Origin: SAR202 cluster bacterium AG-426-M11
GTDB lineage: Bacteria; Chloroflexota; Dehalococcoidia; Lucifugimonadales; UBA826
Length of the DNA stretch: 64,000 nt
Direction of reading: 5' to 3'
Assembly: GCA_003213095.1 (NCBI GenBank)
Contig: QCNV01000004.1
Coordinates: 1 to 64,000, forward strand
Within the stretch, counting starts at the first letter, position 1, and each line of letters begins with the position of its first letter. The notes under the pieces were generated by a model. The model ran no database searches. It was given only the letters and a program-made list of their open reading frames with translations, and was not told where the DNA came from. Of the stretch, positions 32,060 through 55,102 are shown in pieces. The position numbers and the translations under genes are program-made.

Positions 32060-32926
32060 CTACTCTGATTCCCACTCAACTTCAAAAACTGTATGGGTAC
32101 CTGGTAGCCCTTTTAATTCAAATTCTATTTCTTCCCCAAACTTTAAGTCTCCTGCAGAATCAGTCATTCTCTTAGTGACAGAGGATATTAAAATTTGTTC
32201 AGCTGTTGCTTTAGCTGAAATTCGAGCAGCTTCATTTACTGCACGTCCAAAATAATCACCATTTTCTAAAATAGCCTCTCCAGTATTTAATCCAATTCTT
32301 ACATTTATAGGTAAATCAGGTTGCCTTTCTCTTAATTGTTTGAGTTCTTTTTGTATTTGAATTGCGCACAAAACACCATTTCTACTACTAGTAAACGCTG
32401 CCATAAAACCGTCACCCATTTCTTTAACAATAAAACCTTCGTTTTGTCTAATTAAATCACTCAAAACTTCTTCATGAATTCTAGAAACTTCTCGGGATTT
32501 AATATCTCCCAAAGTTCTAACTAAGTCTGTAGAACCAAACATATCACTAAACAAAAAGGTGACTGTTCCACTTGGAGGAGGAGCAATATTTTTACCGTCA
32601 ACTTCTTGGATTTGTTCTATGACTACTACTGTCGCTTTACCTTCTGCCAAATCAAACCTATCTCCATCAGTTAATTGAATTACTTCAGATGGATTTAAAA
32701 ATTTACCATTAAAATTAGAACCGTTTGAACTATTCAAGTCTCTAGCAAAAGCCTGATCTTTTTCCAACCAAAATTCAATGTGGGTCCCAGACACATAAGG
32801 ATCATCTATCACAACATTGCATGACGGAGATCTCCCAACAGTCATCCTGTTGGTTGTTAAAATTTGCCTGTCACCTTTGGATTTTGCTGATGAAACTTCT
32901 ATAAAAAATGCCATATTAACCCTCAA
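32060..32926 (-). CDS. FHA domain + class III adenylate/guanylate cyclase
   Basis: FHA 'VGRSPSCNVVIDDPYVSGTHIEFWLEKDQAFARDLNSSNGSNFNG'; cyclase 'VTFLFSDMFGSTDLVRTLGD', 'VRIGLNTGEAILENGDYFGRAVNEAARISAKA'. Confidence 0.92.
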   Translation of the reverse strand: MRVNMAFFIEVSSAKSKGDRQILTTNRMTVGRSPSCNVVIDDPYVSGTHIEFWLEKDQAFARDLNSSNGSNFNGKFLNPSEVIQLTDGDRFDLAEGKATVVVIEQIQEVDGKNIAPPPSGTVTFLFSDMFGSTDLVRTLGDIKSREVSRIHEEVLSDLIRQNEGFIVKEMGDGFMAAFTSSRNGVLCAIQIQKELKQLRERQPDLPINVRIGLNTGEAILENGDYFGRAVNEAARISAKATAEQILISSVTKRMTDSAGDLKFGEEIEFELKGLPGTHTVFEVEWESE

Positions 32927-37600: not shown

Positions 37601-40139
37601 TATCTGAATCAGATTGGCCTGTATCACTTTCATCGCTCAAATCGGGCTTTGAGGGAGTTGATATTTCTGTATCAATAGTAATTTTTAATGGAATTTCGCT
37701 TTCAGTTACATTACCTACAGCATCAGTAGATCTAGCTGTAATTTCATGAGACCCTTCATCAAGAGGCTCAGATTTTATTGACCATTTACCAGATTCTGAG
37801 ACAGTAGTCTCACCTATAACTTGTCCACGAGTATTTAATAGCTCAATTTTAATTCCAGGAGAAGATTTGCCTTCAAAAACTGGAGAAGGATTTTTAGTAA
37901 TGTTATCCGAATTTGATTCACCGGAATCATCTCTAGACATCAAATCAACATCTGAAGGGGCACTAGCAGTAGATTCAATTTTAACAAAAACGGGCTCAGA
38001 AAGATCACTTTGATTACCAGCCACATCTTGTGATCGTGCAATAATCACATACTCTCCATCTGATAAGGTTTCAGAAATAATAGACCATAGACCTGTATTT
38101 CCAGCTGTAGTTGAGCCCAAAACGAGACCATCGCCATCTACAAGTTCTATGTATGCCAGAGGGTCAGCTATACCAGTAAATTCTGGATTCAAGCTTGATG
38201 TAAGGTCATCAGTACTTGAAGCGCCCGTATCAGTTTCTCTAGTCATGTCAGGTTTTGAAGGAGAAGTAATAGATCTATCTACTGTCACCATTAAAACAGG
38301 AGAAGGTTCGCTAAAAACATCATTATCATTCAATATTTTTGTATAAATTTGATGTTCCCCTTCAGATATATCAGAATTAGAAATGGTACATATACCAGTT
38401 TCTTGATAAGAATTCGATCCTGGGAGACATTCTCCAAGAAATATATCGTTACCTCTGTAAAAAATTACTTCATCAGATTCTGGATTTATATTTGGATGTT
38501 CAACCGAAAGATAAATTGTATTTGCGTTAGTAATGTTATCTGTGTCAGATTGCCCAGTATCGGAAGAAGTAGGATCATCAAAATTCACTATGTTCGGATT
38601 AAGATACGGAATTCCTGAAGCTATAGGCATAGTGGCGTCAAATTGGGTGATATTAAACACATAATCACCTACACCACCGCCACTATATAATCTAATTGTG
38701 TAAGTACCTGTTTGACGAATAGTCCATTCTGAAATCCTTGCGTTGTAATTGCCCCCAGAATCATCATCTGAGACTTCGATTTTCCCTTTTGGATCCAATA
38801 GCTCTATATACGCATCTACATCTCCAGTACTAGCACCTATCATTGAAAAATTGAATATCTGACCTTCAACACCTTCAAATGGAATTTCATGAACTTCATT
38901 AGAATCTTCAAACACAGAAATCAATTCTTCGTCAATACTCATAGGGTCTTTAGAAATTATTACTTCTCCCTGTTTTGGTTCTGAAGATGAAACAACAGGG
39001 TCGGAAGGAGTTGGTAATGGTTCTGGAATAATCGCGGGTGCAGGTTGTTGTGGTAACGTTGGTTCCGGTATAGATGCTTGAGGTGGTACCGAAGAAGAAT
39101 CAGCTCCAGTAGCTAAACCTACAGTATCGCCTTGATTCAAAAAGAAAAACCCTCCGCCACCTGCTACTAATAAAACTACTATTCCAACTACTGCCAAAAC
39201 AGGCATAGGAACAGGAGAGTTAGATTTTGCAGAAGATTTAGCTGGAGTGGCTGGAGTTTTTGCCATTACTTGAGTTCCTAACCCCTTAGGCATTACTCTA
39301 GTTCTTGCTACGGTAGCAGGACCTTCAGATAAAATTTTTTCTACTTTTTCTAACTCAGTAATTAATTCTTCTGCTGATTGAAATCTATTCTCATTATCTT
39401 TTGCCAACGATTTCAATAATGTTTCTTCTAATTCAGGAGGGAATTCATCTAAATAATCATTTAATGGAGGGGGTTCATTATTCATATGCCCGTTTAAAAT
39501 ATCAAAATCACTTTTACCATTGAATGGGGGTTCAGCCGTAAGCATTTGATATAAAACACAGCCCAAAGAATATATATCTGTCCTTGAATCTACTCCTTCA
39601 CCCTGAATTTGCTCGGGGGACATATATAAAGGGGTACCGACTGTGGCATTAGCATTAGTCACTTTTGATAAAACTTCTGCTGAAGCTATTCCGAAATCAA
39701 TTAACTTTACATCACCACTGTCAGTAATAAGCACATTAGCCGGTTTAATATCTCTATGGGTTATTCCAGAAGAGTGAGAAACAGCAAGTGCTGCAGCAAC
39801 CTGTTTTGTCACTGCGACAGCTCTTTGAATAGGAAGTTTTCCACCTCTTTCTAAAATTCTTTCCAAGTTTTCTGTAACGAATTCTGTGACAATATAATGT
39901 TGACCATTCTCTTCTCCATGATCAAACACTTGGATAATATTAGGATGCTGAATGGTAGCAAGTATTGAAGCTTCTCTTTGAAATCTCTCTAGAAATTCTC
40001 CATCGCTGATTGAAGCAGACAAAACTTTAACAGCCACAATTTGACCAGAAGCAGGATCTTGGGCTCTGTAAACAGCTCCCTGACCACCTTCACCTATAAG
40101 GTCTAGTATCTGATAACCACCAATCTCATTTAATTGCAT
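34692..40139 (-). CDS. Transmembrane Ser/Thr protein kinase with long Ig-like repeat ectodomain (1815 aa)
   Basis: Kinase 'YQILDLIGEGGQGAVYRAQDPASGQIVAVKVL', 'HRDIKPANVLITDSGDVKLIDFGIA'; TM 'VLAVVGIVVLLVAGGGGFFFL'; many 'SDTGQSDSDNVTTDTSPTFKGTSDP'-type Ig-like repeats. Confidence 0.92.
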   Translation of the reverse strand: MQLNEIGGYQILDLIGEGGQGAVYRAQDPASGQIVAVKVLSASISDGEFLERFQREASILATIQHPNIIQVFDHGEENGQHYIVTEFVTENLERILERGGKLPIQRAVAVTKQVAAALAVSHSSGITHRDIKPANVLITDSGDVKLIDFGIASAEVLSKVTNANATVGTPLYMSPEQIQGEGVDSRTDIYSLGCVLYQMLTAEPPFNGKSDFDILNGHMNNEPPPLNDYLDEFPPELEETLLKSLAKDNENRFQSAEELITELEKVEKILSEGPATVARTRVMPKGLGTQVMAKTPATPAKSSAKSNSPVPMPVLAVVGIVVLLVAGGGGFFFLNQGDTVGLATGADSSSVPPQASIPEPTLPQQPAPAIIPEPLPTPSDPVVSSSEPKQGEVIISKDPMSIDEELISVFEDSNEVHEIPFEGVEGQIFNFSMIGASTGDVDAYIELLDPKGKIEVSDDDSGGNYNARISEWTIRQTGTYTIRLYSGGGVGDYVFNITQFDATMPIASGIPYLNPNIVNFDDPTSSDTGQSDTDNITNANTIYLSVEHPNINPESDEVIFYRGNDIFLGECLPGSNSYQETGICTISNSDISEGEHQIYTKILNDNDVFSEPSPVLMVTVDRSITSPSKPDMTRETDTGASSTDDLTSSLNPEFTGIADPLAYIELVDGDGLVLGSTTAGNTGLWSIISETLSDGEYVIIARSQDVAGNQSDLSEPVFVKIESTASAPSDVDLMSRDDSGESNSDNITKNPSPVFEGKSSPGIKIELLNTRGQVIGETTVSESGKWSIKSEPLDEGSHEITARSTDAVGNVTESEIPLKITIDTEISTPSKPDLSDESDTGQSDSDNVTTDTSPTFKGTSDPTTLIELFVGSAVIGTGYSNSRGIWSITTEGMFGKQEVYAVATDRAGNESSSSSELLVEVLVQGVGQSSAPQLVASSDSGRYSYDGITNESTPSFTGNAKPDVNVTLFDTRGNELGSSTVRSNGVWTLQSSYINDGKHDVYVILTDEAGNEGDPSPSSTVNIDTQAPSGLRQPILFEEGDSDSPTIIGGTFTEEALIEVVTSDGYFIGETEVEGSSWDLEIFSLQPGDYLIQYFATDIAGNMSQISPGLPIIIKGQSIQQPEINSIEGSTENGTWGSSYDSTFTDGWISISGTSEPFHRIEIFDSSNGRLIGESFSDFNGNWYSQNFDFLSIGKYSIYAISYDPDDGFLSIPSEDYNFEIIPSPPPSAPSKLSMVYWDNDSQRELTGTNTSERFPCFRGQADQFTEVVLQSEFGEIGRGWSDYGQWNICPQSEMPIGEYAVWAYSYDPDDRQRISDDSDYLYIEIFVETLQPPSGLSMVFWDNDARTQITGTSTSERFPCFRGQADQFTEVVLQSEFGEIGQGWSDYGEWNICSKSEMPIGEYAIWAYSYDPGDPQRVSDDSDYLYIEITSENINAPRDLTMYYFDNDSGREVNAKTITRFQDPFFRGFADSNSEVILWGNGRQLGKGYADYQGSWTIYPNGELEVGSYEIWAESVMMDQYSNNQIYSEPSETLFIEVTEEIRNAPVIGGMISEGEFTSTSYSPNVSFEGKLDLGNNSGGAYIDLYTSDGTFIGGTFISQFDGNYWNIDDIYLEPGKYQLYAIAYYENGGNSEPSDYLSIEIMSQNSGFNQSSNFNNRGGGFTSIGDWSGKTGTVSVYDSNDIFIEGLAPFFWSITSANAQNAYFYPNANLVAGINSSGCFSGNSGYKNFDNVDLLVDANNHEFSSTYTIGICTQESSNSSELMLMFNPGTNQYGLLEFAAISNSNLILNYWVGDPGVTNFSGAPQVYESDFGR
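35850..36441 (-). repeat. Two adjacent near-identical ~280-bp repeats inside the kinase ectodomain
   Basis: Both encode 'TSERFPCFRGQADQFTEVVLQSEFGEIG(R/Q)GWSDYG(Q/E)WNIC..SEMPIGEYA(V/I)WAYSYDP', about 35850-36132 and 36160-36441. Confidence 0.85.
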
Positions 40140-40330: not shown

Positions 40331-40987
40331 ATGGATAATAGTTCTGATTTAATAAAAATTATCATCGCAGATGATCATGCAATTTTTAGAGCAGGAATTA
40401 TCAAAGTGCTGAATCTAGATTCTCAATTCCAAATTATAGGTGAAGCCACAAACGGTTTAGACGCTATTTCATTAATCAATAATTTGTCACCAGATGTAGC
40501 ACTCCTAGACATCAAAATGCCTGGAAAAACAGGAATTGAAATTGTTAGAGAATTAAACACAATCAACTCGTCTACAAAATGTTTGGTTTTGACAAACTAC
40601 GATGACCCAGAATATATCCTAGATGCTATAGGTGAAGGTGCAAATGGCTATGTATTAAAAACTATTGAACCATCAAATCTAATAGATAGCGTTAAGGCTG
40701 TATCTGAAGGTGAAATAGTTTTAGATCCCGCAATAGCAACCTTAGTAGCAAAACTATGGCGCCAAAGACAGTCTCCCAATAATGATATTGTAGGAATAAA
40801 ATCTCTTACAGACCGAGAAAAAGAAACTTTAGAGTTAGCATGTGGGGGATTACGAAACAAAGATATTTCCAGTGAAATGGGTATTAGCGTAAGAACTGTA
40901 GAAGGTCATTTCAATAGAATTTTTTCTAAATTAGGCGTTTCTTCAAGAACTGAAGCTGTGTTACAAGCAGTTTCAGAAAATGTTTAA
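40331..40987 (+). CDS. NarL/LuxR-type response regulator
   Basis: 'KIIIADDHAIFRAGIIKVL', 'DVALLDIKMPGKTGIE', HTH 'LTDREKETLELACGGLRNKDISSEMGISVRTVEGHFNRIFSKLGVSSRTEAV'. Confidence 0.94.
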   Translation: MDNSSDLIKIIIADDHAIFRAGIIKVLNLDSQFQIIGEATNGLDAISLINNLSPDVALLDIKMPGKTGIEIVRELNTINSSTKCLVLTNYDDPEYILDAIGEGANGYVLKTIEPSNLIDSVKAVSEGEIVLDPAIATLVAKLWRQRQSPNNDIVGIKSLTDREKETLELACGGLRNKDISSEMGISVRTVEGHFNRIFSKLGVSSRTEAVLQAVSENV

Positions 40988-40988
40988 T

Positions 40989-41804
40989 TTATAACTTGAA
41001 AATTTTAGAGAAAAAACCACTTTTATTTTTACCCGTAGTAACACATCCAACCAAAACAGTAATATTATCTGTTCCGCCATTCTGATTTGCTAACTGAATT
41101 AATAGATTTGGAGTTTCAGCAAGTTCTTTTTTAATCAGAGTATCTTGAATCACATGATCTGATACCAACCCAGACAAACCATCAGAACAAACTAATACTA
41201 CATCACCTTCATATATATCCATTGAAGTTACATCAACCTCTACTTCAGAGTTCAATCCAATTGCTCTTGTGATTACATTATTTCTAGGATGGTTGATAGC
41301 ATCTTCAGGCTTAATAATGCCCAATGCAACCTGCTCTGCAACCCAGCTATGATCTTGAGTAATTTGAATAATTTTTTCAGATCTCAAAAGATATGCTCTA
41401 CTATCTCCTACATGAGCATAAAACAATCTATTGTCATAAAACAGAACTGAAGTAAATGTTGTACCCATACCTAAAGTTTCAGATTCTTTAGACTTTTCAT
41501 AGACTTTAAAATTTGCGTGCTTTAAAGAATTTATAAGATGTTCTTCAATACGATTAGATTTTAATATTTTAAAATTTTCAACAAAATATCTTACAGACAA
41601 TTCACTTGCTACTTCTCCAGCTTCATGGCCTCCCATTCCATCTGCAACAACTAACAAAGTGTAATCTTTTTGTTTGTCAGCATGATGAATAAAATAATAA
41701 TCCTCATTGTGATCTCTTACGAGACCTACATCTGTAGCACCATGTGATTCAACAACGAATTGCGTTTTTTTCATTCCTGTTTCCCAATTAAAGTATTTAT
41801 ACAA
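40989..41804 (-). CDS. PP2C-family Ser/Thr phosphatase
   Basis: 'TDVGLVRDHNEDYYFIH', 'LLVVADGMGGHEAGEVAS', 'AHVGDSRAYLLR', 'LVCSDGLSGLV', 'GGTDNITVLV'. Confidence 0.94.
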   Translation of the reverse strand: MYKYFNWETGMKKTQFVVESHGATDVGLVRDHNEDYYFIHHADKQKDYTLLVVADGMGGHEAGEVASELSVRYFVENFKILKSNRIEEHLINSLKHANFKVYEKSKESETLGMGTTFTSVLFYDNRLFYAHVGDSRAYLLRSEKIIQITQDHSWVAEQVALGIIKPEDAINHPRNNVITRAIGLNSEVEVDVTSMDIYEGDVVLVCSDGLSGLVSDHVIQDTLIKKELAETPNLLIQLANQNGGTDNITVLVGCVTTGKNKSGFFSKIFKL

Positions 41805-41872: not shown

Positions 41873-42796
41873 ATGTTTTCAAATTTATCTTACATAATAG
41901 ATGTTATAGTTTTCTCTCTCTCTTTATTAATCATTATGGGAGCAGTGAGTTCTTTAGTTCTATTAGTATGGAAATTATCTAAAGACAAAGAGAAACAATC
42001 TTCATTGCAAATCATAGAAGAGATCAAAAATTCGCCTAACCTTCAGCCACAAACAACAAATCTAACTGTTTCAAACTCTGAAATTCAACAAAGAGAAATG
42101 ACTTTGGAAGTAGCAAAAAATCTTCTTGAAAGAGAAGGGTTCAAAATTTCCACACAAAGTGAAAAACAAACAAATTCCAGATCAACTGTTCCAACTGTAT
42201 CCAACTCAAACTTTTCACAGAATCTTCCTACAAATCATCCTGCATTTATGTTGTTAAAAACTGGGAATGTCCACATGAAACATGGAGATTTCCCAGCTGC
42301 TATAAAAGATTTTAGCGATGCATTAATACTAAATCCGTCTTATGCTGGTGCGTACAATGCAAGAGGTATGGCTAACCGCAAAATGAAAGATTTTCAGTCA
42401 GCACTTCAAGACTACAATTCAGCCTTAAAATTACACAATAATCTAGCTGCAGCTTATAACAATCGTGGAGTAATATTCATGGAAATCAGACAATTTGAAG
42501 CTGCTTTAAAAGACTTCGATAAAGCTTTAGATTTAGAACCTCAAAATTCATACGGTTATTCTAATAGAGCTGTAGCGTACAATTACATGCGAGATTTCAA
42601 TAAAAGTATTAGTGAAAGTACTAGAGCGGTAGAGATCAATCCCCATTTGCCAGAGGCATATGTAGTCAGGGGAATCGCAAAAATCCAGATTGGAGCCAAT
42701 CAGGCTGCAACATTAGATTTTGACGTTGCTGAATCATTGGGCTACAAAAGAGTTGATATAGAAGATCGTCTTAATGCGATTAAACAATCCATTTAA
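41873..42796 (+). CDS. Membrane-anchored TPR-repeat protein
   Basis: N-terminal TM; repeats 'GDFPAAIKDFSDALILNPSYAGAYNARGMANRKMKDFQSALQDYNSALKL...'. Confidence 0.88.
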   Translation: MFSNLSYIIDVIVFSLSLLIIMGAVSSLVLLVWKLSKDKEKQSSLQIIEEIKNSPNLQPQTTNLTVSNSEIQQREMTLEVAKNLLEREGFKISTQSEKQTNSRSTVPTVSNSNFSQNLPTNHPAFMLLKTGNVHMKHGDFPAAIKDFSDALILNPSYAGAYNARGMANRKMKDFQSALQDYNSALKLHNNLAAAYNNRGVIFMEIRQFEAALKDFDKALDLEPQNSYGYSNRAVAYNYMRDFNKSISESTRAVEINPHLPEAYVVRGIAKIQIGANQAATLDFDVAESLGYKRVDIEDRLNAIKQSI

Positions 42797-43334
42797 AATT
42801 AGCAAGAAATCTACCTTACTGATATCAATTATATTTTCTGCAATTGTATCTATAGATTTCAACACATCGATTTATGAAAACATATATTTATTTCTAAATT
42901 TATCAATAATTTTTTGGGGATTAATAGTACTAGGAATTTCAGATTATTCCTCTAATAAAATTTCAAACAAAATCATCTTAATGTTAATTTCTATTAGCCT
43001 GATATTTAGCGCTATTGATTTACAAAATAATTCATTTACATTAGACAACCAATCTCTTCTAATACATATAAGCGGCGGAATACTAGGATTTACTGTTTTT
43101 TTGGTGGTTTATCTTCTCCCAAAACAAATATTAGGAGGTGGAGATGTAAAACTGGCAGGGTTAATTGGAATAATTACAGGATTCCCAATGGTCACCATAG
43201 TCCTATTGTTAGGATTATTTAGTTGTGTGATTATAGAACGAATCAAAAACACATCTTCATCTATTCCTTTAGGATTCTACCTAGTAATAATCACTATAAT
43301 CTATTTAGGAATATTTAATATTTTCTTTCAATAA
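42774..43334 (+). CDS. A24-family prepilin peptidase
   Basis: GxGD protease motif 'QILGGGDVKLAGLIGIITG', first Asp in 'LGISDYSSNKISNK', multiple TM segments. Confidence 0.8.
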   Translation: MRLNNPFKISKKSTLLISIIFSAIVSIDFNTSIYENIYLFLNLSIIFWGLIVLGISDYSSNKISNKIILMLISISLIFSAIDLQNNSFTLDNQSLLIHISGGILGFTVFLVVYLLPKQILGGGDVKLAGLIGIITGFPMVTIVLLLGLFSCVIIERIKNTSSSIPLGFYLVIITIIYLGIFNIFFQ

Positions 43335-44427
43335 TTTCTTGTGTCAATTTATCGGAATTCCTAGTAATTGGAATATTCCCTACGACAGAAGTACCAGAAC
43401 CTAATTTAGAAACTACATCGACATTGCCTCCAACTCTTTCAGCTCGTAATTTCAAATTCAAAAGTCCGAAGTGTCCTGCTTGAGGAACATTTGAAATATT
43501 ATCTTCTTCAAATCCAATTCCATCATCTTGAATTTCAAAATCAATACTCTTTTCATTCCAAATAATAGATATAACCACCATTTCAGCTTTTGCATGTTTA
43601 AGTGAATTTAACAAAGCTTGACGAACAATATGAAAAATATCTTTTGATACGGGTCCAGGTAATTTATCTTGATCTAAATTTGACCTATAAATAATTTTAG
43701 TATCACCTTTTGTAGGATTTAAATCAATATTTTGAAGTAAAGCTACTATAGCACTATCTAATCCAGTCAAAGCTAAATCATCATGACCTTTTTCTTTTAC
43801 TAATTGTCTCAAATTTTGATCTGCATTTTTCACCATACTTACAATTTCATCAACTTGATCTAATAAAGCTGAATCAGAAGATAATGTGTATTTCATTAAA
43901 CCTAAATTCATCAGAATAGCACTAAGTTCACTCATAGTTTGATCATGTAAATCTGCAGCTAATTCTTTACGCATATCTTCTCGGCCTTGCTCAATCGCAT
44001 CAAACTGCTCTATTCTTCTGAGCCTGTAGGCTAAAATTTGAGCTATTCTCTTTAAAAAGTTCTGCGAAATTTCAGGGTGATCAACAGATAATTTATCAAA
44101 AGAGTCTCTTGAAATCCTAAATAGGGAGCATTCAGTTCTCGCAATCACTCTCGCAGTACGGGGGTTGGAGTCTAAAAATGCTATTTCACCAATAATAGAC
44201 CCCGGTTTAATCCAAGCAACTGTAATCCATAAATCATTGACCTTTATTTCAACTAATGCCTCGCCTTTAACAAGTAAATCTAAGTTAGTAGAAATCTCTC
44301 CATAATCAACGATAATTTGATCTGATGAAACTATAACTTCGTTTCCATAATCATTGAGAGATTCAATCAAATTTCCCATTTCATCAACTGAAAATATAGG
44401 CTCATCCAGTGAATTTTGCATTTCCAC
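43315..44427 (-). CDS. Cyclic-nucleotide-binding domain + HisKA_3-type sensor histidine kinase
   Basis: CNMP domain 'GEALVEIKVNDLWITVAWIKPGSIIGEIAFLDSNPRTARVIARTECSLFRI'; H-box 'MRKELAADLHDQTMSELSAIL'; HATPase 'FEIQDDGIGFEE...GHFGLLNLKLRAERVGGNVDV'. Confidence 0.9.
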   Translation of the reverse strand: MEMQNSLDEPIFSVDEMGNLIESLNDYGNEVIVSSDQIIVDYGEISTNLDLLVKGEALVEIKVNDLWITVAWIKPGSIIGEIAFLDSNPRTARVIARTECSLFRISRDSFDKLSVDHPEISQNFLKRIAQILAYRLRRIEQFDAIEQGREDMRKELAADLHDQTMSELSAILMNLGLMKYTLSSDSALLDQVDEIVSMVKNADQNLRQLVKEKGHDDLALTGLDSAIVALLQNIDLNPTKGDTKIIYRSNLDQDKLPGPVSKDIFHIVRQALLNSLKHAKAEMVVISIIWNEKSIDFEIQDDGIGFEEDNISNVPQAGHFGLLNLKLRAERVGGNVDVVSKLGSGTSVVGNIPITRNSDKLTQEIIERKY

Positions 44428-44437
44428 TCATTTTCAC

Positions 44438-45106
44438 CTATTGGGCTGAGGATTGATTATATAAATTGACGCAATGATCCAAAAATGCGACACCAACGCT
44501 AGGCTGCAAATTTTCAGAAATTTGGATACCCAATGATTCTGCAATTACCTGCAATTCTTTTTCCAATTGATTTAAAGTTATGTCTAATTCATTAGAAATT
44601 TCATTTAAATCCATACCATTACAATTTAAAGCTATGATTTCCAATTGTTGATCAGTGAAATTACTATTCGATGAATCTGAATGCCGATTATAATATCCAA
44701 TTAATTTTTCAACTAAAACTTTATCTAAAACAAAATATCTTTGCTGAACCAAATTCACAGTCCTAATCAACTCTCCAATATCATCTAGTGAGCTTTTTAA
44801 AACATACGCTTTTGCAATAGGATCATCGCCAATCAAATCTTGAATATATGTCCAATCATCATAAGCAGAGACTATTACTATTCCAATTTCTGGAGATTGG
44901 CTTCTTATCAATTTACTTGCAGAAATCCCATCTAGTTTAGGCATTCGGACATCTAAAACAGCAACATCTATTTTATGTTCAGAAATTGCTTCCACAGCTT
45001 GTAACCCATCTTCTACAACTGAAGATACATCAAAATTGATAGATAGAACTCTTTTATATAAAGATCTTATGGGTTCCGAATCATCGGCTATTAAAATTTT
45101 TGACAT
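44438..45106 (-). CDS. Response regulator with degenerate LuxR-like C-terminus
   Basis: 'KILIADDSEPIRSLYKRVL', 'DVAVLDVRMPKLDGI', 'FTDQQLEIIALNCNGMDLNEISNELDI'. Confidence 0.85.
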   Translation of the reverse strand: MSKILIADDSEPIRSLYKRVLSINFDVSSVVEDGLQAVEAISEHKIDVAVLDVRMPKLDGISASKLIRSQSPEIGIVIVSAYDDWTYIQDLIGDDPIAKAYVLKSSLDDIGELIRTVNLVQQRYFVLDKVLVEKLIGYYNRHSDSSNSNFTDQQLEIIALNCNGMDLNEISNELDITLNQLEKELQVIAESLGIQISENLQPSVGVAFLDHCVNLYNQSSAQ

Positions 45107-45111
45107 AAACC

Positions 45112-45720
45112 TTACTTTTTAGAAAGTAATTCATATACTTCTAATAATTCTTGTTTGAGCTGTTCGATAGTGACTGTACCATGTTTATCTAATAGCTGTC
45201 CCACTTGAGGACGTACTTCAATTTTATCGGCAAACAGATCATCCATCTCACTTGAATCCTCATCAATAATTTCTGATACTTGAATTTCTTCAAATTCTTC
45301 ATCAGAGTCTTCTTCTGAATCTGATTCTTCATCAGATGAGACTGATACTGTTTTAAGATTTTTAGGTTTTTCAAAATTTGGAGTAACTGATGTCGCAGTA
45401 GATTCGGGACTAAGATCTTCAGCATCGATAATATTAATATCAGAATCTGAGTCTATACCTGCAGATTCAGATTGATCAGCTTCATCAACTTTCAATACAG
45501 GTTCGAATACATCTTCATAAATTTCAGGATCTAATTCACTCAAATCCCAAAGAGCTTCGGTATTGTTTGATGGATCTGTATCGTCAAACTTTTCTTCAAT
45601 TATTTCAGAATCCAATCCATCTAAATCTGGTGTATCTTCTTTTTTGCCTCCAGTAATACCACTATCTATCTTCTTCATTACGTCGCCAAATTTATCGTAA
45701 ATAGTTCTTCTTACATCCAT
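45112..45720 (-). CDS. Acidic low-complexity protein of the archaellum-like locus
   Basis: Asp/Glu/Ser-rich with conserved-looking C-terminus 'VGQLLDKHGTVTIEQLKQELLEVYELLSKK'; position in operon. Confidence 0.6.
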   Translation of the reverse strand: MDVRRTIYDKFGDVMKKIDSGITGGKKEDTPDLDGLDSEIIEEKFDDTDPSNNTEALWDLSELDPEIYEDVFEPVLKVDEADQSESAGIDSDSDINIIDAEDLSPESTATSVTPNFEKPKNLKTVSVSSDEESDSEEDSDEEFEEIQVSEIIDEDSSEMDDLFADKIEVRPQVGQLLDKHGTVTIEQLKQELLEVYELLSKK

Positions 45721-45735
45721 TTATTTTTTCTCCTA

Positions 45736-47307
45736 CTAAACTGACAACAATGCTTTTGTGATTGGAGGAACAATTAATAATACTATTCCAGAACAAAGGG
45801 AAGTGGAAGATAAATACGAAATTATTCTTAAATTATTTCCACCTTCTGAAAATTTTGGTGCCAACGAATTCGCTATGGTAAGTATAGCGACTGCAAAAAT
45901 AATTGTATATTGTAACGAACCCATATTAGTCATCTGAAATACATCTAACCCTGATGACAGATCTTGTGTCTGAGGTATATTTAAACCCGGAGGAGCAGTT
46001 AAACCAGTTGGAGCCTCAAATTCTGCAGTCACCATAGTACTTTCACCCGAGACAACTTCATTTAATTTAGAATTGAAATTGATAATAATTTCTAAAACAA
46101 AAACTAATATAAATGCCATTACCAAATTCATAGTAAGAGTAAGAAATGAAAAAGTAGATGATGTTAATTTCCGTTTAGCTCTTAGTTCTGTAATATTTTG
46201 AGCATAATCAGAGCAAATTTCTCCAATTTGAGCTGGATCACAACCTACTTCTACTCCATCAACAAACATACCTGTTGTTCTTGCAGCTAGTTCACTGCCA
46301 GTTTCTCGATTAAAAGTTTCCCATGATTCAGTAGAAGGTAAACCCGATTCTAATCTAGTTCTCAATCTTTCTAGAGGTAATCTCAAATGTTGATATGAAG
46401 CTGAATCTATTCTTCTCAAAGACTCAGTTAAAGTAACTCCTGCAGAACCTGCAATACTTCCAATTGCTCTTAAAAACATTGGTAATTCTTCATCGATTTT
46501 ATTGACTCGACTAGCATCTCGAGAAGCTAAATATCCTGAAGGAAGTAAAGCAATCCCTAACAATATAAAAACTGCAGATGAGGATCTAACAGGGCTAATA
46601 TCGTTAGAAGTAAGTACAAAAAATAACAACATGCCTACTGCAAAAGCTGCAGGACCTAAAATCAATGCTAAAAATCTAGAAATTTTTCTATCTCTTGTAG
46701 CTCCAGAAACTGGGTCATAAGTAAATCTTTCATAAGGTGCTACTTTATAAATAAGATATACTCCGACTGAAGTAACTCCAGTCAATGTAAATAACATCAA
46801 ATATATAAAAGATTCACTGGTAGAACCCAATAAACTTGAAACCTGAGAAACAACCATAATCAGAGTAACAGCTACTAACACAGCAGCATATGCATCTGTC
46901 CATTTCCTTAAATTTTCAACATTTCTTTCATAATCATTCCTATAATGTTCACCTTCTGATCTGGTTTCAGATAACACAAAATCAGACTCAGAACTGCCAG
47001 AGGAAATGGATGCCGAAAATCTCAGCAACAAACTTTTAATTCTTGGAGCTTTTGCTTTTTGTGCTACAGCTTGGAATGCTCGCGTATACTCAACACCCAT
47101 AGACCTAGCCATTAAATTGATATATTCAAAGAAAACTGCTGTAACAAATTTTTGCCTTCCACAATATTCCAATAATCTATCTCTACCTACACCACCTCTT
47201 GCTAATATAGACATGTAAGTTAATTGTGAAAAAAGATCAAATCCAATTACTTGGTTATCAGAAGAGACCTTCTCTATTTGCCTGGGCGAGGATGTTGTGG
47301 AGTTCAT
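45736..47307 (-). CDS. arlJ: ArlJ/FlaJ-like (T2SS-F/TadC superfamily) platform membrane protein
   Basis: Two T2SSF-like regions: 'LAARTTGMFVDGVEVGCDPAQIGEICSDYAQNITELRAKRKLTSSTFSFLTLTMNLVMAFILVF'; directly downstream of ArlI/ArlH homologues. Confidence 0.82.
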   Translation of the reverse strand: MNSTTSSPRQIEKVSSDNQVIGFDLFSQLTYMSILARGGVGRDRLLEYCGRQKFVTAVFFEYINLMARSMGVEYTRAFQAVAQKAKAPRIKSLLLRFSASISSGSSESDFVLSETRSEGEHYRNDYERNVENLRKWTDAYAAVLVAVTLIMVVSQVSSLLGSTSESFIYLMLFTLTGVTSVGVYLIYKVAPYERFTYDPVSGATRDRKISRFLALILGPAAFAVGMLLFFVLTSNDISPVRSSSAVFILLGIALLPSGYLASRDASRVNKIDEELPMFLRAIGSIAGSAGVTLTESLRRIDSASYQHLRLPLERLRTRLESGLPSTESWETFNRETGSELAARTTGMFVDGVEVGCDPAQIGEICSDYAQNITELRAKRKLTSSTFSFLTLTMNLVMAFILVFVLEIIINFNSKLNEVVSGESTMVTAEFEAPTGLTAPPGLNIPQTQDLSSGLDVFQMTNMGSLQYTIIFAVAILTIANSLAPKFSEGGNNLRIISYLSSTSLCSGIVLLIVPPITKALLSV

Positions 47308-49045
47308 AAAAGTTTGTATTATCCCGTTCTGCTAATCTTCTTAAAATCTCTGCTCTACGATCTAATTCCTCATAAATTTTTCTATATTCCAAAGGTGGAA
47401 GACCTCTTCTAGAAGCCACTACCTGTTCTAATAAATAAGTATTCATATAACCAGGGAATTCATGTTCATCAGTAGCTGGATTCCATTTAAATACTTCAAT
47501 AAATCCAAAAGAATTAGATTCTGGATCATATTCTACTATTTCATTAATACTTAAACATCTTCTTGCAGGAGTCCCGTCAGGTAACCTTACAGCACTCATA
47601 ATGATTACCATATTGAGGTTATCAACGTAAGTTTTTGGAACATTAATTGGATTACCAGTTAATCTTTGAATCAATTTTTCCACAGATGAAGCGTGGAATG
47701 TAGCCATACAGGCATGACCTGTTTGCATAGCCTGAAAAGCAATAGCGCCCTCTGCGCCTCGAATTTCTCCAATAACTATTTCTTCAGGTCTTTGTCTCAA
47801 AGCAGCCACAAGTAAATCAAACATTGTAACTGAACCACTATTATCCCCACCTCCACGTACAACTTCTCTAATCCAATTTTGGTGAGGAACTTGCAATTCA
47901 GGAGTATCTTCAATACTTACTATTTTTGCATTAGGAGGAATAAACGTACTAATAGCATTTAAGATAGTAGTTTTGCCTGATGCTGTCTCTCCCGAAACGA
48001 AAGTGTTCATTCCTTCTGATAGCATTAATGAAATATAAGCTGCCATCTCAAATGTCATAGACTTAAAATTAATTAAATCTAATATGCTAAATGGAGTTGC
48101 ACTGAATTTCCTGATAGTGTAATTACTACCCCTCTTAGAAACATCCCCACCATAAACAATATTTATTCTAGAACCATCAGGAAGAGTTGCGTCAACAATT
48201 GGATCTCGTAGTGTTACAGGTCTTCCTATTTTTTCAGATAATTGAATGACATATTGATCCAATTTTTCAGTGTCAGTAAATTCCACACTAGCTTTTAATC
48301 CACCAAAAGTTTTGTGTTCAATGTACAAAGGACCAACACCACTACAACTAATATCTTCTATATAAGGATCTTCAACCAAAGGATCCATGATACCCATCCC
48401 AACTTTTTCTCTCTTCATCAAGTAGCGTAGACCTTGAAATTGATCATCAGAAATATCTAATACATTTTGAATTTTTTTTGAATTATTCTTTGATCTACCA
48501 CAAATTTCATCTACTGCAGTCATAATCACATCTAATCGAGCATCTTTATCAGGTGCTTCACGTAATTCATCGATATAATCCATTAATTGAACATCAACTT
48601 CTTTAACTATATCCTCAACTCCAGGAACCAATGAAGGCTCTACAGCCAAGTAGTAATCTCTAGTATCATCTGGGTCATGAATCACATGAATAAATACTCC
48701 TCCACCTACTGGATAAAGTAAATTTCTTTTATCTTGTGAATCAGCTGATTTATTAACAAAACTTTTAAACTCTGGAATACCAATTTCATCAATTGGTAAT
48801 TCGGAAACATATGCTCCTAAATGCCTATATTGTTCAGCCTGCTCTTTAAATTCTTTAGGTAATTTTTGAATAATTTTTTCGTCCAATTCAAAATTAGGTG
48901 AAATCCCATTTGAAACGTTGTCTAAATAACCTCTAATACCTTCACGAGCAACCTGATTGGAGCCTGAAAAAGGCAAAGTGCCATTTTTAGATTTTTGTGA
49001 ACCCATTTGAACAACAACTTTAAAGCTGTCTAACCCAAATTTCAT
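47258..49045 (-). CDS. arlI: ArlI/FlaI-like secretion/assembly ATPase (ORF call to 49153 is over-extended; ATG at 49045 follows the arlH stop)
   Basis: 'PLVEDPYIEDISCSGVGPLYIEHKTFGGLKASVEFTD', 'FVSGETASGKTTILNAISTFIPPNAKIVSIEDTPELQVPHQNW', 'RPEEIVIGEIRGAEGAIAFQAMQTGHACMATFHA'. Confidence 0.92.
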   Translation of the reverse strand: MKFGLDSFKVVVQMGSQKSKNGTLPFSGSNQVAREGIRGYLDNVSNGISPNFELDEKIIQKLPKEFKEQAEQYRHLGAYVSELPIDEIGIPEFKSFVNKSADSQDKRNLLYPVGGGVFIHVIHDPDDTRDYYLAVEPSLVPGVEDIVKEVDVQLMDYIDELREAPDKDARLDVIMTAVDEICGRSKNNSKKIQNVLDISDDQFQGLRYLMKREKVGMGIMDPLVEDPYIEDISCSGVGPLYIEHKTFGGLKASVEFTDTEKLDQYVIQLSEKIGRPVTLRDPIVDATLPDGSRINIVYGGDVSKRGSNYTIRKFSATPFSILDLINFKSMTFEMAAYISLMLSEGMNTFVSGETASGKTTILNAISTFIPPNAKIVSIEDTPELQVPHQNWIREVVRGGGDNSGSVTMFDLLVAALRQRPEEIVIGEIRGAEGAIAFQAMQTGHACMATFHASSVEKLIQRLTGNPINVPKTYVDNLNMVIIMSAVRLPDGTPARRCLSINEIVEYDPESNSFGFIEVFKWNPATDEHEFPGYMNTYLLEQVVASRRGLPPLEYRKIYEELDRRAEILRRLAERDNTNFYELHNILAQANREGLF

Positions 49046-49046
49046 A

Positions 49047-49751
49047 TTAAGCCTTAGCCCTAGAAACCGGAACAATTCGTATTCCCATAGCGGGTTCAAC
49101 TTCAAATCCCATAATATTTCCAGTTTTATTATCTGCGCCTCGAATCTTAGCAACTTCCATAGTCTTTATAAGATTTGTCCCAGAAGAAGTCACTTGTAAT
49201 CTCAAATAAGCATCACATATAGATCTAACTCTTAAAAGAAAATCTTCATCAAAAGCATTTTCATGAACTGTGCAAGCAATAACCTGACCTTTTTCACAAA
49301 CATCTTTTAAACCATTAAAAAAATCTTGAATTTTTTCACCCCCTGCCCTAGACACAAATGTAGTCAAAGAATCAATCACGATCATTTTTGAAGAATGCTG
49401 TTGTTGTATATGATTAGATAATTGATCGAAAAATAAATCGGGATCCTCGTTTTCAGCAGAAGAAGTAATAGGAAAAACTTGCAAGTCATTCATGAGAAAA
49501 TAATCAGTAACTTCTTGCCCCAAACTTTCCATCTGTCTTAAAAATGCATGAATATTTTGTTCAGTAGTATAAATTGTTGCTGATTTACCATCTCTTAAAG
49601 TACCCCAAATTAATTGCTGAGCAAAGGTACTTTTCCCTGATGCATCTTGACCTTCAATTAACATAACAGTTTTAAGTGGAATCCCTCCACCCAAACGCCT
49701 GTCAATTTCTACACTACCAGTACTGATTACTTCTGAAGATTGAGTTGTCAT
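49047..49751 (-). CDS. arlH: ArlH/FlaH-like KaiC/RecA-fold ATPase
   Basis: 'EIDRRLGGGIPLKTVMLIEGQDASGKSTFAQQLIWGTLRDGKSATIYTTEQN', 'MIVIDSLTTFV'. Confidence 0.9.
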   Translation of the reverse strand: MTTQSSEVISTGSVEIDRRLGGGIPLKTVMLIEGQDASGKSTFAQQLIWGTLRDGKSATIYTTEQNIHAFLRQMESLGQEVTDYFLMNDLQVFPITSSAENEDPDLFFDQLSNHIQQQHSSKMIVIDSLTTFVSRAGGEKIQDFFNGLKDVCEKGQVIACTVHENAFDEDFLLRVRSICDAYLRLQVTSSGTNLIKTMEVAKIRGADNKTGNIMGFEVEPAMGIRIVPVSRAKA

Positions 49752-49777
49752 TTTATGATCCTGATAACTTTATTTAG

Positions 49778-50752
49778 TTAATTGTTACACAAAGAGTCAA
49801 AATTTTCTGTAGTTTTCAACCCATTTGGCCAAATCACGATCAATGTGCCGGGTTCTTTATTGTAATTATTTAACTTTGTTGAAATCTGAATAGTTTCATT
49901 ATTATTCAAAATACTAGGTTCATATTGATCATTAGATTGCAGTATTCCATTTTCAGTAATAGTTGCAGGAAGCACAAAAGACCATTCATCATTCCCGGGG
50001 GTTGCATTCAATGATTTATTCAATTTCAAGAAAGTTTCTGGTTGATTTGCAGGACGTAATTGAATAAAAATATCGATTTTTTCAGAAAAATACATCGAAC
50101 CTACCGGAAAAGAAGTTTGGCCAACATTTTTTAAACGAAATTTATCAACACATTGAAAATCAGATAAATTCACAGCTACACCATGAGTGATATCTACAGA
50201 ATATTTTCCATGATAATCACCGTTTGATCCAAACGACCAAACTTTCAAATGGTGTTTGTTTGTATCTGTTGAATTCGTTAAAGAGGTAACGTCTAATGAT
50301 CCAAATCTACTAAGTGAATCAATATATTTAGACCCGAAATTGGTAGCAGTAACATTTTCTCCAACACCGTAATAATCCAAAGATAACCTATTTGCTGTAC
50401 TACGCCCCATTTCAGTCAAAAAATCCCTAACATAATTAATTTGGAAATTTAATCCTGCGGGAGCATCAAACCAATAACATTGATATGGATCAGTCCCAGT
50501 AACCTCCCCTTGTCTTGGTATACCAGTAAAAAGTGGTTTACAACCTAAAGCGTCAACTTCATTATAACTAGCTAATGTAGATACTTCTGAGGTTAATTCA
50601 AATGCTGAGTCTAATTTTTCTGCTCTATACTCAGCAGCAGTACGATTCGCTTCAGCTAATAAATTCATTCCAATCTGATTAGATCTAAACATAACTATAA
50701 CTGAAGTTAGTAGAACAGAAATGATTAATAATGCAGAAATGCTTGAACCCAT
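49778..50752 (-). CDS. ArlF/ArlG-like single-TM stator/pilin-like protein (long form)
   Basis: N-terminal TM 'SSISALLIISVLLTSVIVMF' plus beta-rich C-terminal part; position between arlH and the second ArlF/G-like gene. Confidence 0.55.
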   Translation of the reverse strand: MGSSISALLIISVLLTSVIVMFRSNQIGMNLLAEANRTAAEYRAEKLDSAFELTSEVSTLASYNEVDALGCKPLFTGIPRQGEVTGTDPYQCYWFDAPAGLNFQINYVRDFLTEMGRSTANRLSLDYYGVGENVTATNFGSKYIDSLSRFGSLDVTSLTNSTDTNKHHLKVWSFGSNGDYHGKYSVDITHGVAVNLSDFQCVDKFRLKNVGQTSFPVGSMYFSEKIDIFIQLRPANQPETFLKLNKSLNATPGNDEWSFVLPATITENGILQSNDQYEPSILNNNETIQISTKLNNYNKEPGTLIVIWPNGLKTTENFDSLCNN

Positions 50753-50767
50753 TTAGGTCACCAAGAT

Positions 50768-51256
50768 CTATTGATCAAACTTAAATTGATAATTTGATTG
50801 AATTCCGTTAGATGTCGCAAAACGTAAAAAATAAATTTTAGGTTTAATCAATGCGCTAGCATTATTAAGTTTAATTGAAATTTCAACAGTCTCACCTTGA
50901 GTCCATGGACCTGTTTTAGTTGTACTCCAGTTATTGTCTGCAAGATTCCCAGTAGAATCATAGGATAAAACATAAAATTGAGTCTGATCATTAGATCCAA
51001 TAAAAATATCGGATAAACTCAATTGAGTAATATTTGCTCCACCTATGTTTTTAACCCAAGCATTTACCGTTGTAGAATTCGTTGAGTGAACAGTTACAAT
51101 TTCTACATCTGTAGAAATTCTTACTGATAAATCTTTTTGAGATTCAACAATTGATCTACTACTACTCCCAACAATAGGTGTAAGCGTAGTAGTAACTAAT
51201 GCAGCAGCAGTAACTCCAGCAATAACCAATAAGGCAGTAACAATCACTTTATCCAT
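50768..51256 (-). CDS. ArlF/ArlG-like single-TM protein
   Basis: 'MDKVIVTALLVIAGVTAAALVTTTLTPIVG...' then 'VNAWVKNIGGANITQLSLSDIFIG', the beta-sandwich pattern of archaeal FlaF/FlaG. Confidence 0.72.
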   Translation of the reverse strand: MDKVIVTALLVIAGVTAAALVTTTLTPIVGSSSRSIVESQKDLSVRISTDVEIVTVHSTNSTTVNAWVKNIGGANITQLSLSDIFIGSNDQTQFYVLSYDSTGNLADNNWSTTKTGPWTQGETVEISIKLNNASALIKPKIYFLRFATSNGIQSNYQFKFDQ

Positions 51257-51271
51257 GATTTACTCCTGATA

Positions 51272-51799
51272 TTAAGCAGAGTCTATAGAAATACAAACTA
51301 ACTTATGTAGTTCTGATACCACCTCAGAATAAGCAGATGGAGACATAGGGTCGTCTGAAGAATACATCTCATCTAACATAGACATATTCTTCAAAATAAA
51401 TTTTGCCATTAATGGACTAATCATTCCTGAATTCTCATAGGCTTCTAAAATAGGAAATAATCTAGCAGCAGTCAGTCCTTTTTCTTTAGAGTTTCCCATC
51501 CATCCCAATAAGTCATTTAATGTGCCTTTATTGTTCTGATCAGCAGACATATCTAACCCCGAATCATTACCAAAGTATGGTTGAGGCTTTCCTGCTGGGG
51601 CAGGCATTGGAGAAGAATTAGATACAGGTGAGGCGGCAGCTGCTGCCTGAACGATTTGAGGTGCAGAAATCACATCAGATTTCCTTAACCAAATATCTCT
51701 CATATCTATCAAAATCTGTCTAATTTCAGATTTTAATAAATTAACTTCACCCTCTAGAGCTTCTACTCTTTGTTGTAATTGTGAATTCGAGGTAGTCAT
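51272..51799 (-). CDS. ArlD/E-like cytoplasmic protein with N-terminal coiled coil
   Basis: 'QLQQRVEALEGEVNLLKSEIRQILIDMRDIWLRKSD' and 'LNDLLGWMGNSKEKGLTAARLFPILEAYENSGMISPLMAKFILK'. Confidence 0.6.
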   Translation of the reverse strand: MTTSNSQLQQRVEALEGEVNLLKSEIRQILIDMRDIWLRKSDVISAPQIVQAAAAASPVSNSSPMPAPAGKPQPYFGNDSGLDMSADQNNKGTLNDLLGWMGNSKEKGLTAARLFPILEAYENSGMISPLMAKFILKNMSMLDEMYSSDDPMSPSAYSEVVSELHKLVCISIDSA

Positions 51800-51809
51800 T
51801 TATCACCTA

Positions 51810-52457
51810 TTATTCTAAGTTCATCACGCGCATTAACTCTGGAGGTGTCTTTCTAGACAAAATTAACGATCCACCTTGCTGTGGAATAATTTCAAGTCTA
51901 AAAATCATATTAGGACCTAATAAAGTTGCACCACCAGCTTGAGTATCATTCAATACCACTCTAATTTCAGCGACATCACCTTGTTGTAACAATTCTGGAG
52001 TATTGGCAGTAGTTTCCACAACTTTAGTAACAGTTACAGTGCTCAAAATACCGTCAGCTGCAGCTCTTCCATTTATCTCAGCATTAGAAGAATCTCTCTG
52101 ATTATCATCGGAATAAATCAAAGCAATTTTATCTCTAGCAATAGATGTACCTGTAGATCCACTAGCTGTAGTAATCTGAAAAGTTAATGCTTCTACACGA
52201 GTACAAGCACCTTGAGCATTCTGCGCACATTCAGCAATCAGCCCGCCTTTAGGTGCAAAAGTAGAGCTAGCTTCAGCTATTCCAGCTTGTGCAGTAGTTT
52301 TTGCTTTCTCTGTACTAAACAAACCAGTTGTCATAACTGTAAAAGCGAATACAGCAGCAACAACGATAAATGCGATCAAAATAATCGCAGTTTCAAGACC
52401 AGTAATTCCTCTTTGATCTTTCCAAAGTCCATTCATTCTGTCAAACATATTTTTCAT
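51810..52457 (-). CDS. arlB: Archaellin-like (FlaB/ArlB-type) filament subunit with type III signal peptide
   Basis: 'WKDQRG|ITGLETAIILIAFIVVAAVFAFTVMTTGLFSTEKAKTT' is the archaellin N-terminal pattern including the RG cleavage context. Confidence 0.9.
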   Translation of the reverse strand: MKNMFDRMNGLWKDQRGITGLETAIILIAFIVVAAVFAFTVMTTGLFSTEKAKTTAQAGIAEASSTFAPKGGLIAECAQNAQGACTRVEALTFQITTASGSTGTSIARDKIALIYSDDNQRDSSNAEINGRAAADGILSTVTVTKVVETTANTPELLQQGDVAEIRVVLNDTQAGGATLLGPNMIFRLEIIPQQGGSLILSRKTPPELMRVMNLE

Positions 52458-52544
52458 GTCTAATTATTCCTTATAAATAACTAAATCAATTTTTCAATCT
52501 ACATTCTAACAGTACTACAAAGAAGATTGTAAGTATTGTTAAAT

Positions 52545-53426
52545 TTATTCTACAAATTGAAGAATGTATGCAGGCCAATAATTCTCAACTATCGCTCCTA
52601 TAATCACGATCACAAAAGCGATTATAGCTAGAACTAATACGGCATTTAAAACTTTATACAATCTAGGATTTTTAAAACCGTATATTGTTACCCCACGTGA
52701 TAAAAATATACCAGCTAAAGAACCTACTATATAAGCTAATCCCTCTAAGATAATGTGAGGAATCAAGGCTACAAAAGCATAAATAATATACATTGTAGGG
52801 TCAGCAGCAGATTCCAGGCCAACTTTTGTTAGAAGGACTAAAGTAATACTCCATCTCCCCGCATTCCAACCTAAAGCTAGACTAGCTCCCAAACTTCTAA
52901 ACATAAATGAAAACCAAAAAAACAATATCAAAATAGCGGTATTGTTAAAGAAAAATTGCCAACCATGGCCGGCAAATCTGTCTCCTGTTAAGACAAATTG
53001 CTCACTGGGATATGCAGCCCCAACAAAAGTAAATCTCTCAACAAGAATGTCTCTCTCAATAATTGAAGCCAATATAGCCCAAACAACTAGCATACTAACT
53101 AAAATCACTGTTCCAGAAACAATACTTTTCCTGTTTGCAGTCCATCCGCCCACCCCTTGATCCCAAATCCTCTCACGATTAATTCTTAAAATTTGATTTA
53201 CTCTAGGCACTATTGCGGCGGTAGCAATCGCTAATGACGCTAAACCTGCTTCACTCATGGGGATAATAACGGTAGTAACAACAACACCAATAAAAACTGC
53301 TAACGCAGCCTCAATCCCTATTAATAGATTCCATCTAAAATCAGATTCAACCTTAATATGATCTAGTGTTGCTCCTATAACAGAACCTGGCTCTTCAGAA
53401 GACCTGATATTTGCAAACATGTTCAT
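52545..53426 (-). CDS. SpoIIM/DUF95-like integral membrane protein
   Basis: 'WQFFFNNTAILILFFWFSFMFRSLGASLALGWNAG' and 'ALIPHIILEGLAYIVGSLAGIFLSRG' match the SpoIIM NN...PH.xxE signature. Confidence 0.7.
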   Translation of the reverse strand: MNMFANIRSSEEPGSVIGATLDHIKVESDFRWNLLIGIEAALAVFIGVVVTTVIIPMSEAGLASLAIATAAIVPRVNQILRINRERIWDQGVGGWTANRKSIVSGTVILVSMLVVWAILASIIERDILVERFTFVGAAYPSEQFVLTGDRFAGHGWQFFFNNTAILILFFWFSFMFRSLGASLALGWNAGRWSITLVLLTKVGLESAADPTMYIIYAFVALIPHIILEGLAYIVGSLAGIFLSRGVTIYGFKNPRLYKVLNAVLVLAIIAFVIVIIGAIVENYWPAYILQFVE

Positions 53427-54277: not shown

Positions 54278-55102
54278 TTGGAGTCAAATAAATTGGTTGC
54301 TTATGTCCCTGAGTATAAATCCATATTCATTAGCGATACTCATTTAGGTTCTAGGGGTGCTCAAGCACACCACCTAAATAATTTCCTACAAAAATACAAC
54401 AGCGAAAATTTATTTTTAGTTGGCGATATTGTCGATGGCTGGAGATTAGAAAGAAAATTTTTTTGGCCCGAACAACACACTAAAGTTCTTGAACAAATAA
54501 ATAAAAAGGCATTATCAGGAACACATGTACATTACCTTATAGGAAATCATGACGAATCAGTAAAAAACTTTTCTGATCGCGGGTTAAACATAGCAGAATT
54601 AGATACTCTTGCAGAAAATGTGAATTTTGAAACACAGATAGATTACATTGGAATCGATGGGAAAAAATACTTAGTTTGTCATGGAGACATGTTCGATACT
54701 CTAATGGACTCAAACACTGGTAGATGGGTAATGTTTTTAGGAACTACATCTTATGATCTTTTACTCTACATAAACACTGCAGTAAACATCATCACACGTA
54801 AACTAAATCTTCCATACATAAATATTACGGGGTTTGCCAAAAGAAGAGCAAAAGCTGCTTGTAATTTATTACTCAAATTTGAAGGTATATTGAGTAACCA
54901 TGCAAGCGAAAAACAATATGATGGGGTAATATGTGGACACATCCATACACCCGAAATAAAAAATATTAGCGGTACCGTTTACATGAACAGTGGTGACTGG
55001 GTGGAAAACTGTAGCGCTTTAGTTGAACATCATGACGGGAGCTGGGAAATTATAAATTGGCGAGAATCACATAGTAAAACCAAAACTAGCACTCATAACT
55101 GA
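54278..55102 (+). CDS. UDP-2,3-diacylglucosamine pyrophosphatase (LpxH)-like metallophosphatase
   Basis: 'SIFISDTHLGSRGAQA', 'LFLVGDIVDGWRLERKFFWPEQH', 'YLIGNHDE', 'GVICGHIHTPEI'. Confidence 0.9.
   Translation: MESNKLVAYVPEYKSIFISDTHLGSRGAQAHHLNNFLQKYNSENLFLVGDIVDGWRLERKFFWPEQHTKVLEQINKKALSGTHVHYLIGNHDESVKNFSDRGLNIAELDTLAENVNFETQIDYIGIDGKKYLVCHGDMFDTLMDSNTGRWVMFLGTTSYDLLLYINTAVNIITRKLNLPYINITGFAKRRAKAACNLLLKFEGILSNHASEKQYDGVICGHIHTPEIKNISGTVYMNSGDWVENCSALVEHHDGSWEIINWRESHSKTKTSTHN

Follow-up and report, generated by a model that had tools for sequence, protein, structure and literature searches.

The closest described system is that of Litorilinea aerophila (Chloroflexota, Caldilineales), for which a functional archaellum, with a solved structure and swimming, was reported in 2025 (PMC12488501, PDB 9i5h), and archaellum genes were reported in 2023 from the SAR202 isolates 'Candidatus Lucifugimonas marina' (PMC10444878). 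Here we analysed a stretch of 64,000 nucleotides, hereafter the window, from SAR202 cluster bacterium AG-426-M11 (contig QCNV01000004.1, assembly GCA_003213095.1). On its minus strand, positions 45736-52457 carry seven intact open reading frames in the order arlB-arlD/E-arlG-arlF-arlH-arlI-arlJ, the "arl2" order of Euryarchaeota; a prepilin peptidase gene lies beside them. We conclude that this uncultured marine SAR202 organism (Chloroflexota) very probably possesses a complete archaellum locus. Because Chloroflexota archaella, those of SAR202 included, were published in 2023 and 2025, the presence of an archaellum in this group is already known and the core finding is not new; what look new are the enlarged stator protein ArlF and a conserved set of signalling genes around the locus. 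A preliminary description of this DNA had recognised the arl cluster and called archaellum-like genes in Chloroflexota a recent theme, as these publications bear out, whilst it had nothing on the enlargement of ArlF or on the signalling genes linked to the locus.

The locus shares with L. aerophila an arl2-type core set, a bacterial host, a lack of flagellar genes in the same genomes, and the fold of the archaellin ArlB (32% identity, 9i5h being the best PDB match). L. aerophila has PilN/PilO-LysM genes near its locus, which are proposed anchors, and a cheY homologue, whereas in the window ArlF carries an insert, the peptidase gene is adjacent, and a cyclic-nucleotide-binding kinase and response regulators follow arlJ. 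'Candidatus Lucifugimonas marina' is likewise a SAR202 bacterium with flaB, flaGFHIJ and a prepilin peptidase, but it has six tandem and six scattered archaellins where the window organism has one; we found no description in PMC10444878, supplement aside, of its ArlF size or neighbouring signalling genes. The euryarchaeal arl2 archaella (Archaeoglobi, Methanosarcinales) have the same gene order and an ArlI about 50% identical, yet their ArlF is 153-180 amino acids long and has no insert. The Tad pilus (CpaF/TadA) and type IV pili are distantly homologous in their ATPase and platform protein. In the Chloroflexota archaellum papers, supplements aside, we found neither enlarged ArlF domains nor a kinase linked to the locus described; the text of PMC12488501, supplement aside, lacks the terms 'kinase', 'response regulator' and 'insertion' altogether, although it does mention a duplication of arlF. 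We found no titles or abstracts on ArlF domain insertions, 'propeller' there denoting the filament.

All seven frames were recovered at the positions and on the strand given in the preliminary description, and its naming of them stood, in three cases with refinement. The arlB gene (51810..52457, minus strand, as are all arl genes below) encodes an archaellin with the class III signal DQRG|ITGLETA. It matches PF01917 at 83.4 bits against a Pfam cut-off of 29.5, the motif GITGLETAI is invariant across relatives, and apart from ArlG it is the sole archaellin detected in the assembly. Its AlphaFold model (predicted local distance difference test, pLDDT, 84.7) has as its top PDB match 9i5h, the L. 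aerophila archaellum solved by cryo-electron microscopy (E 2.3e-14), with archaeal archaella next. The two frames previously called ArlF/G-like could be told apart. The shorter is arlG, the stator filament subunit (50768..51256; PF01917 40.4 bits, NCBIfam ArlG 32.5 bits, below its cut-off), and the longer (49778..50752) is arlF, identified by profile and by a fold match to FlaF. Between arlB and arlG, as in archaea, lies a gene for a putative ArlD/E-type cytoplasmic protein with an N-terminal coiled coil and a C-terminal helical domain (51272..51799), which no family model recognised in the Pfam scan; it was assigned by synteny and alignment, a single iterated profile gathering it with archaeal homologues that match PF04659 slightly under cut-off, and it can be aligned with archaeal ArlD/E proteins.

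The motor genes follow. ArlH (49047..49751), the KaiC-like ATPase of the motor, scores 253 bits with NF004723 FlaH (cut-off 194) and 203 bits with the stricter NF052589 ArlH model, slightly under its cut-off of 215; its top single-domain PDB match is FlaH 4yds at 120 bits. The motor ATPase ArlI (47258..49045) scores 636 bits with NF058587 against a cut-off of 550, compared with 178 for the bindosome family, 157 for TadA and 50 for PilB, and its PDB matches are led by FlaI 4ii7 (424 bits) and 4ihq (421), followed by 2oap (307) and CpaF (151). For the membrane platform ArlJ (45736..47307, overlapping arlI), NF004703 is by far the best family at 344 bits, yet under its curated cut-off of 570. The prepilin (archaellin) peptidase (42774..43334, plus strand; PF01478 53.5 bits) is the sole prepilin peptidase detected in the assembly. 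By family models and PDB matches, ArlI and ArlH are thus placed in archaellum families rather than among Tad or KaiC proteins, in agreement with the earlier separation of this locus from Tad and type IV pilus systems. A Tad pilus was rejected on the ArlI scores; to our knowledge, Tad systems have no ArlH, ArlF or ArlG.

In a tree of ArlI proteins, a branch with 98% support (Shimodaira-Hasegawa-like approximate likelihood ratio test, SH-aLRT) separates all 63 Chloroflexota rows from the archaeal rows; the window's ArlI stands among the Chloroflexota archaellum ATPases, not with Tad, and adjoins the euryarchaeal ones. Because the outgroup consists of two distant paralogues with very long branches, the root is uninformative and only the split between Chloroflexota and archaea was used. 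The ArlI cut-off was passed by 9 of 349 genomes sampled phylum-wide and by 17 of 98 genomes among relatives. Among named relatives of the window's ArlI, those at 96-97% identity come from one Chloroflexi and one SAR202 (ALOHA) metagenome bin, and UBA6495, UBA7891 and OSU_TB12 follow at 78-80%. The cluster is syntenic in further genomes of the genus and family and partly so in other SAR202 families, and compared with locus L028 of the same genus its genes are intact, with ArlG, ArlH, ArlI and ArlJ 93-97% identical. The archaellum locus has very probably been vertically maintained. A decayed pseudogene cluster was rejected because every arl frame is open.

ArlF, which would form the stator cap, departs from the archaeal pattern. 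A profile of compact archaeal and bacterial ArlFs matches it in two pieces, at amino acids 1-55 (model 1-55), a membrane helix, and at 205-319 (model 67-168), an Ig domain; the intervening ~145 amino acids therefore interrupt the protein at the start of the Ig domain. The insert region (50153..50581, minus strand) is beta-rich and lies between the first two Ig strands, and its beta strands appear in the AlphaFold model of ArlF (pLDDT 81.8), whose top PDB match is FlaF of S. acidocaldarius (4p94, E 2.4e-5). It is missing from archaeal ArlF and from the compact ArlF of locus L051, and Pfam and PDB searches returned no family for it; it weakly resembles collagenase PPC/CBD (PPC/collagen-binding) domains in fold matches that were reported without query coverage. 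ArlF is also the fastest-changing arl protein, at 61% identity to L028 against 86-97% for the others.

Comparable enlargements occur elsewhere. Loci L048 and L050 have three tandem ArlFs of 497-1287 amino acids, interrupted at the same site as the window's by PD40 beta-propeller repeats, and the ArlF of L120 is interrupted there by about 370 amino acids, so that the core is split at one common site in three lineages. In L027 the ArlF, 923 amino acids long, is broken at another loop, and the repeats inserted there resemble in sequence the propeller type of L048 and L050; several Anaerolineae ArlFs end in cadherin/Big tails. The longest ArlF exceeds 250 amino acids at 19 of 51 bacterial loci and at none of 15 archaeal loci (Fisher p = 0.003), a comparison in which the rows are related rather than independent, the archaeal set includes the one 'Fermentibacteria' locus, and the archaeal loci are all near the bacterial donor lineage. 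On the ArlI tree, at least 5 changes are required to account for ArlF enlargement.

Around the arl cluster lies a set of signalling genes, two of which fall within the range 43315-53426 of the preliminary description; for that range the arl cluster stood, but it also holds a histidine kinase and response regulator (43315-45106) and a membrane protein (52545-53426) that had gone unnamed. Directly 3' of arlJ is a gene for an acidic protein (45112..45720, minus strand) with no family in Pfam, NCBIfam or PDB sequence searches; it is found after arlJ in four SAR202 families and keeps the tail LLxKHGTxxxxxLxxEL. It is followed by response regulator RR2 (44438..45106, minus strand; PF00072 66.9 bits), with a conserved receiver Asp and a degenerate LuxR-like C-terminus, and by a soluble histidine kinase with an N-terminal cyclic-nucleotide-binding domain (43315..44427, minus strand; PF00027, PF07730, PF02518). 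Beyond the peptidase lie a membrane-anchored TPR protein, a kept neighbour by synteny and TPR families (41873..42796, plus strand), a PP2C-type Ser/Thr phosphatase (40989..41804, minus strand; PF13672/PF00481), and a NarL/LuxR-type response regulator, RR1 (40331..40987, plus strand; PF00072, PF00196, family synteny). Next comes a Ser/Thr protein kinase with bacterial Ig repeats in its C-terminal portion (34692..40139, minus strand; PF00069 188.7 bits, PF19077 281.5 bits, synteny); this protein is 1815 amino acids long, has six Big_13 repeats, and is conserved beside the arl cluster. An FGGY-type sugar kinase separates it from an FHA-domain class III adenylate/guanylate cyclase (32060..32926, minus strand; PF00498 63 bits, PF00211 56.5 bits). 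Family f28 is a second family with the same signalling set around its archaellum, and there (L039) the cyclase lies within the cluster, between the phosphatase and the membrane protein.

We compared the ten genomes of families f1 and f28 that have ArlI (arl+) with six that lack it (arl-), leaving out genome G011. The histidine kinase orthologue is present in 9/10 arl+ and 0/6 arl- genomes; in the tenth arl+ genome, G015, the contig stops close by. For the cyclase orthologue the counts are 10/10 and 1/6, and for the PP2C phosphatase 8/10 and 0/6, with a further fragment in G011. In this family these three genes thus largely follow the presence of the archaellum. G011 has no arlI and keeps the histidine kinase. 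At its locus L144 (G011:C18), about 16740-16965, the last part of RR2 directly follows the sequence upstream of arlB, everything from arlB to most of RR2 being lost whilst the flanking membrane protein, kinase, peptidase and TPR genes are kept. This junction may have arisen by natural deletion or as a join in the assembly. Elsewhere in Chloroflexota, the archaellum loci L057, L058, L061, L077 and L096, and likewise L064, L076, L102 and L116, also have histidine kinase and response regulator genes on their flanks, in sets that vary in size and order.

With genome-wide gene content checked one family at a time, CheW-domain proteins were not found in the window's assembly or in 14 of the 16 arl+ SAR202 genomes, of which several are at least 95% complete; flagellar rod proteins were found in none of 12 genomes. 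The cell appears to lack chemotaxis signalling.

An alternative for the locus as a whole is a non-rotating archaeal-type pilus for adhesion or uptake rather than a swimming organ. Archaeal-type pili also have ArlI, ArlJ and pilin homologues, archaeal pilus loci are known from two Chloroflexota that lie outside the archaellum clade (PMC12488501), and chemotaxis genes were not found; but ArlH, ArlF, ArlG and ArlD/E, which a review ties to rotation (PMC12024892), are all present, the bindosome family falls far behind the archaellum motor family in the ArlI scores, and the ArlB model has an archaellin-like fold. We consider such a pilus improbable. Far less credible still, to the point of being nearly negligible, is contamination or a chimera with archaeal DNA. 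The window is drawn from a draft assembly (bases 1-64000 of a 70.4 kb contig; 1.16 Mb in 50 contigs, 78% complete), but bacterial genes flank the cluster in at least 9 related, independent genomes, among them one assembled as a single contig of 2.69 Mb and others in which the contig concerned measures 291 kb or 173 kb. G+C is uniform over the whole window, at 0.34 within the arl cluster, and ArlI clusters with other Chloroflexota. The bacterial, non-chimeric origin assumed in the preliminary description was borne out by these surroundings.

For the additions to ArlF the choice is closer. Archaeal ArlF caps the stator and binds the S-layer, and this binding is essential for motility (PMC13319060). 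By analogy with that role, and with the additions confined to ArlF whilst ArlG at the same loci remains about 150-190 amino acids, we give roughly even chances to the proposal that the insert serves stator anchoring in the bacterial wall. Instead, the insert and the propeller and cadherin-like domains elsewhere may be surface-adhesion or sensing modules unrelated to anchoring, which we regard as possible but doubtful. Beta-propellers and cadherin/Big domains are commonly adhesive, and most Chloroflexota archaella retain a compact ArlF, so an insert is not required for function. The signalling genes invite a similar question. Tentatively, and at somewhat less than even confidence, domain content and gene neighbourhood, the sole basis here, suggest a relay in which the Ser/Thr kinase and phosphatase act through the FHA-cyclase and a cyclic nucleotide on the histidine kinase and regulators. 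A general regulatory island that merely adjoins the archaellum genes is a slightly weaker contender: genome G005 (77% complete) has the cyclase with no archaellum genes detected, and the peptidase, kinase and TPR genes outlast arl loss in G011. The distribution of the histidine kinase orthologue argues against it, as do the matching set in f28, with the cyclase in its middle, and the G011 deletion, which takes part of RR2 and looks recent. The joint claim, that ArlF is a modular wall anchor formed by repeated independent domain gains that replace S-layer binding and that in SAR202 a kinase-phosphatase-cyclase-histidine kinase relay using a cyclic nucleotide operates the swimming organ with no chemotaxis array, is in our judgement unlikely to hold in full.

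Several observations weigh against an archaellum locus with these two additions. A filament or swimming has not been seen for this organism, and microscopy of SAR202 isolates carrying such genes showed no archaella (PMC10444878). ArlJ and ArlG score under curated cut-offs, and the ArlD/E identity of the 51272-51799 protein is weak at the sequence level. What the ArlF insert binds is conjectural. The absence of chemotaxis rests mainly on more complete relatives because the assembly is incomplete; the co-occurrence counts for the signalling genes come from a small number of related genomes, in which linkage could account for them, and the cyclase of G005 counts here too.

On the archaellum reading, the ArlB pre-archaellin would be cut by the neighbouring peptidase. 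By homology with studied archaella, the filament would then be assembled on ArlJ by the ATPase ArlI, ArlH would switch ArlI from assembly to rotation, and ArlG and ArlF would form the static part in the wall. The extra ArlF domain would most likely let the stator grip the bacterial envelope instead of an archaeal S-layer. The linked response regulators and the histidine kinase with its cyclic-nucleotide-binding domain would most likely control production or activity of the archaellum, and, as conservation of the neighbourhood and joint occurrence suggest, the Ser/Thr kinase, PP2C phosphatase and FHA-cyclase may supply their input. How Chloroflexota without PilN/PilO anchor their archaella was stated to be unknown in 2026 (PMC13319060), and the 2025 paper noted that the CheF adaptor between chemotaxis and motor is missing and that another component may have evolved (PMC12488501); the enlarged ArlFs and linked signalling genes are concrete, testable candidates for these two gaps. 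S-layer-less archaea have no distinctive ArlF motif (PMC12448462), and a modular bacterial ArlF, if true, would therefore clearly exemplify how a rotary machine can be adapted to another kind of cell wall.

Upstream of arlB lies a gene for a multi-pass membrane protein (52545..53426, minus strand), weakly SpoIIM-like (PF01944 E 0.031, below cut-off) and a kept neighbour in families f1 and f28; it is 99% identical to L028 2978-3859 (same genus) and ~51% in the sister genus, unlike its neighbours. Just upstream of the arl cluster in the genus, window positions 54278-57433 hold a metallophosphatase, a glycosyltransferase and a UDP-glucose-dehydrogenase-like gene, for which a link to filament glycosylation is possible. 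The ArlI of L072 (Candidatus Fermentibacteria bin B22_G4) is nested within Methanogasteraceae/Methanosarcinales archaea, and that contig is therefore probably mis-binned archaeal DNA. Some Dehalococcoidia carry two arlI genes in tandem (L109, L120, G124:C1, G160:C5).

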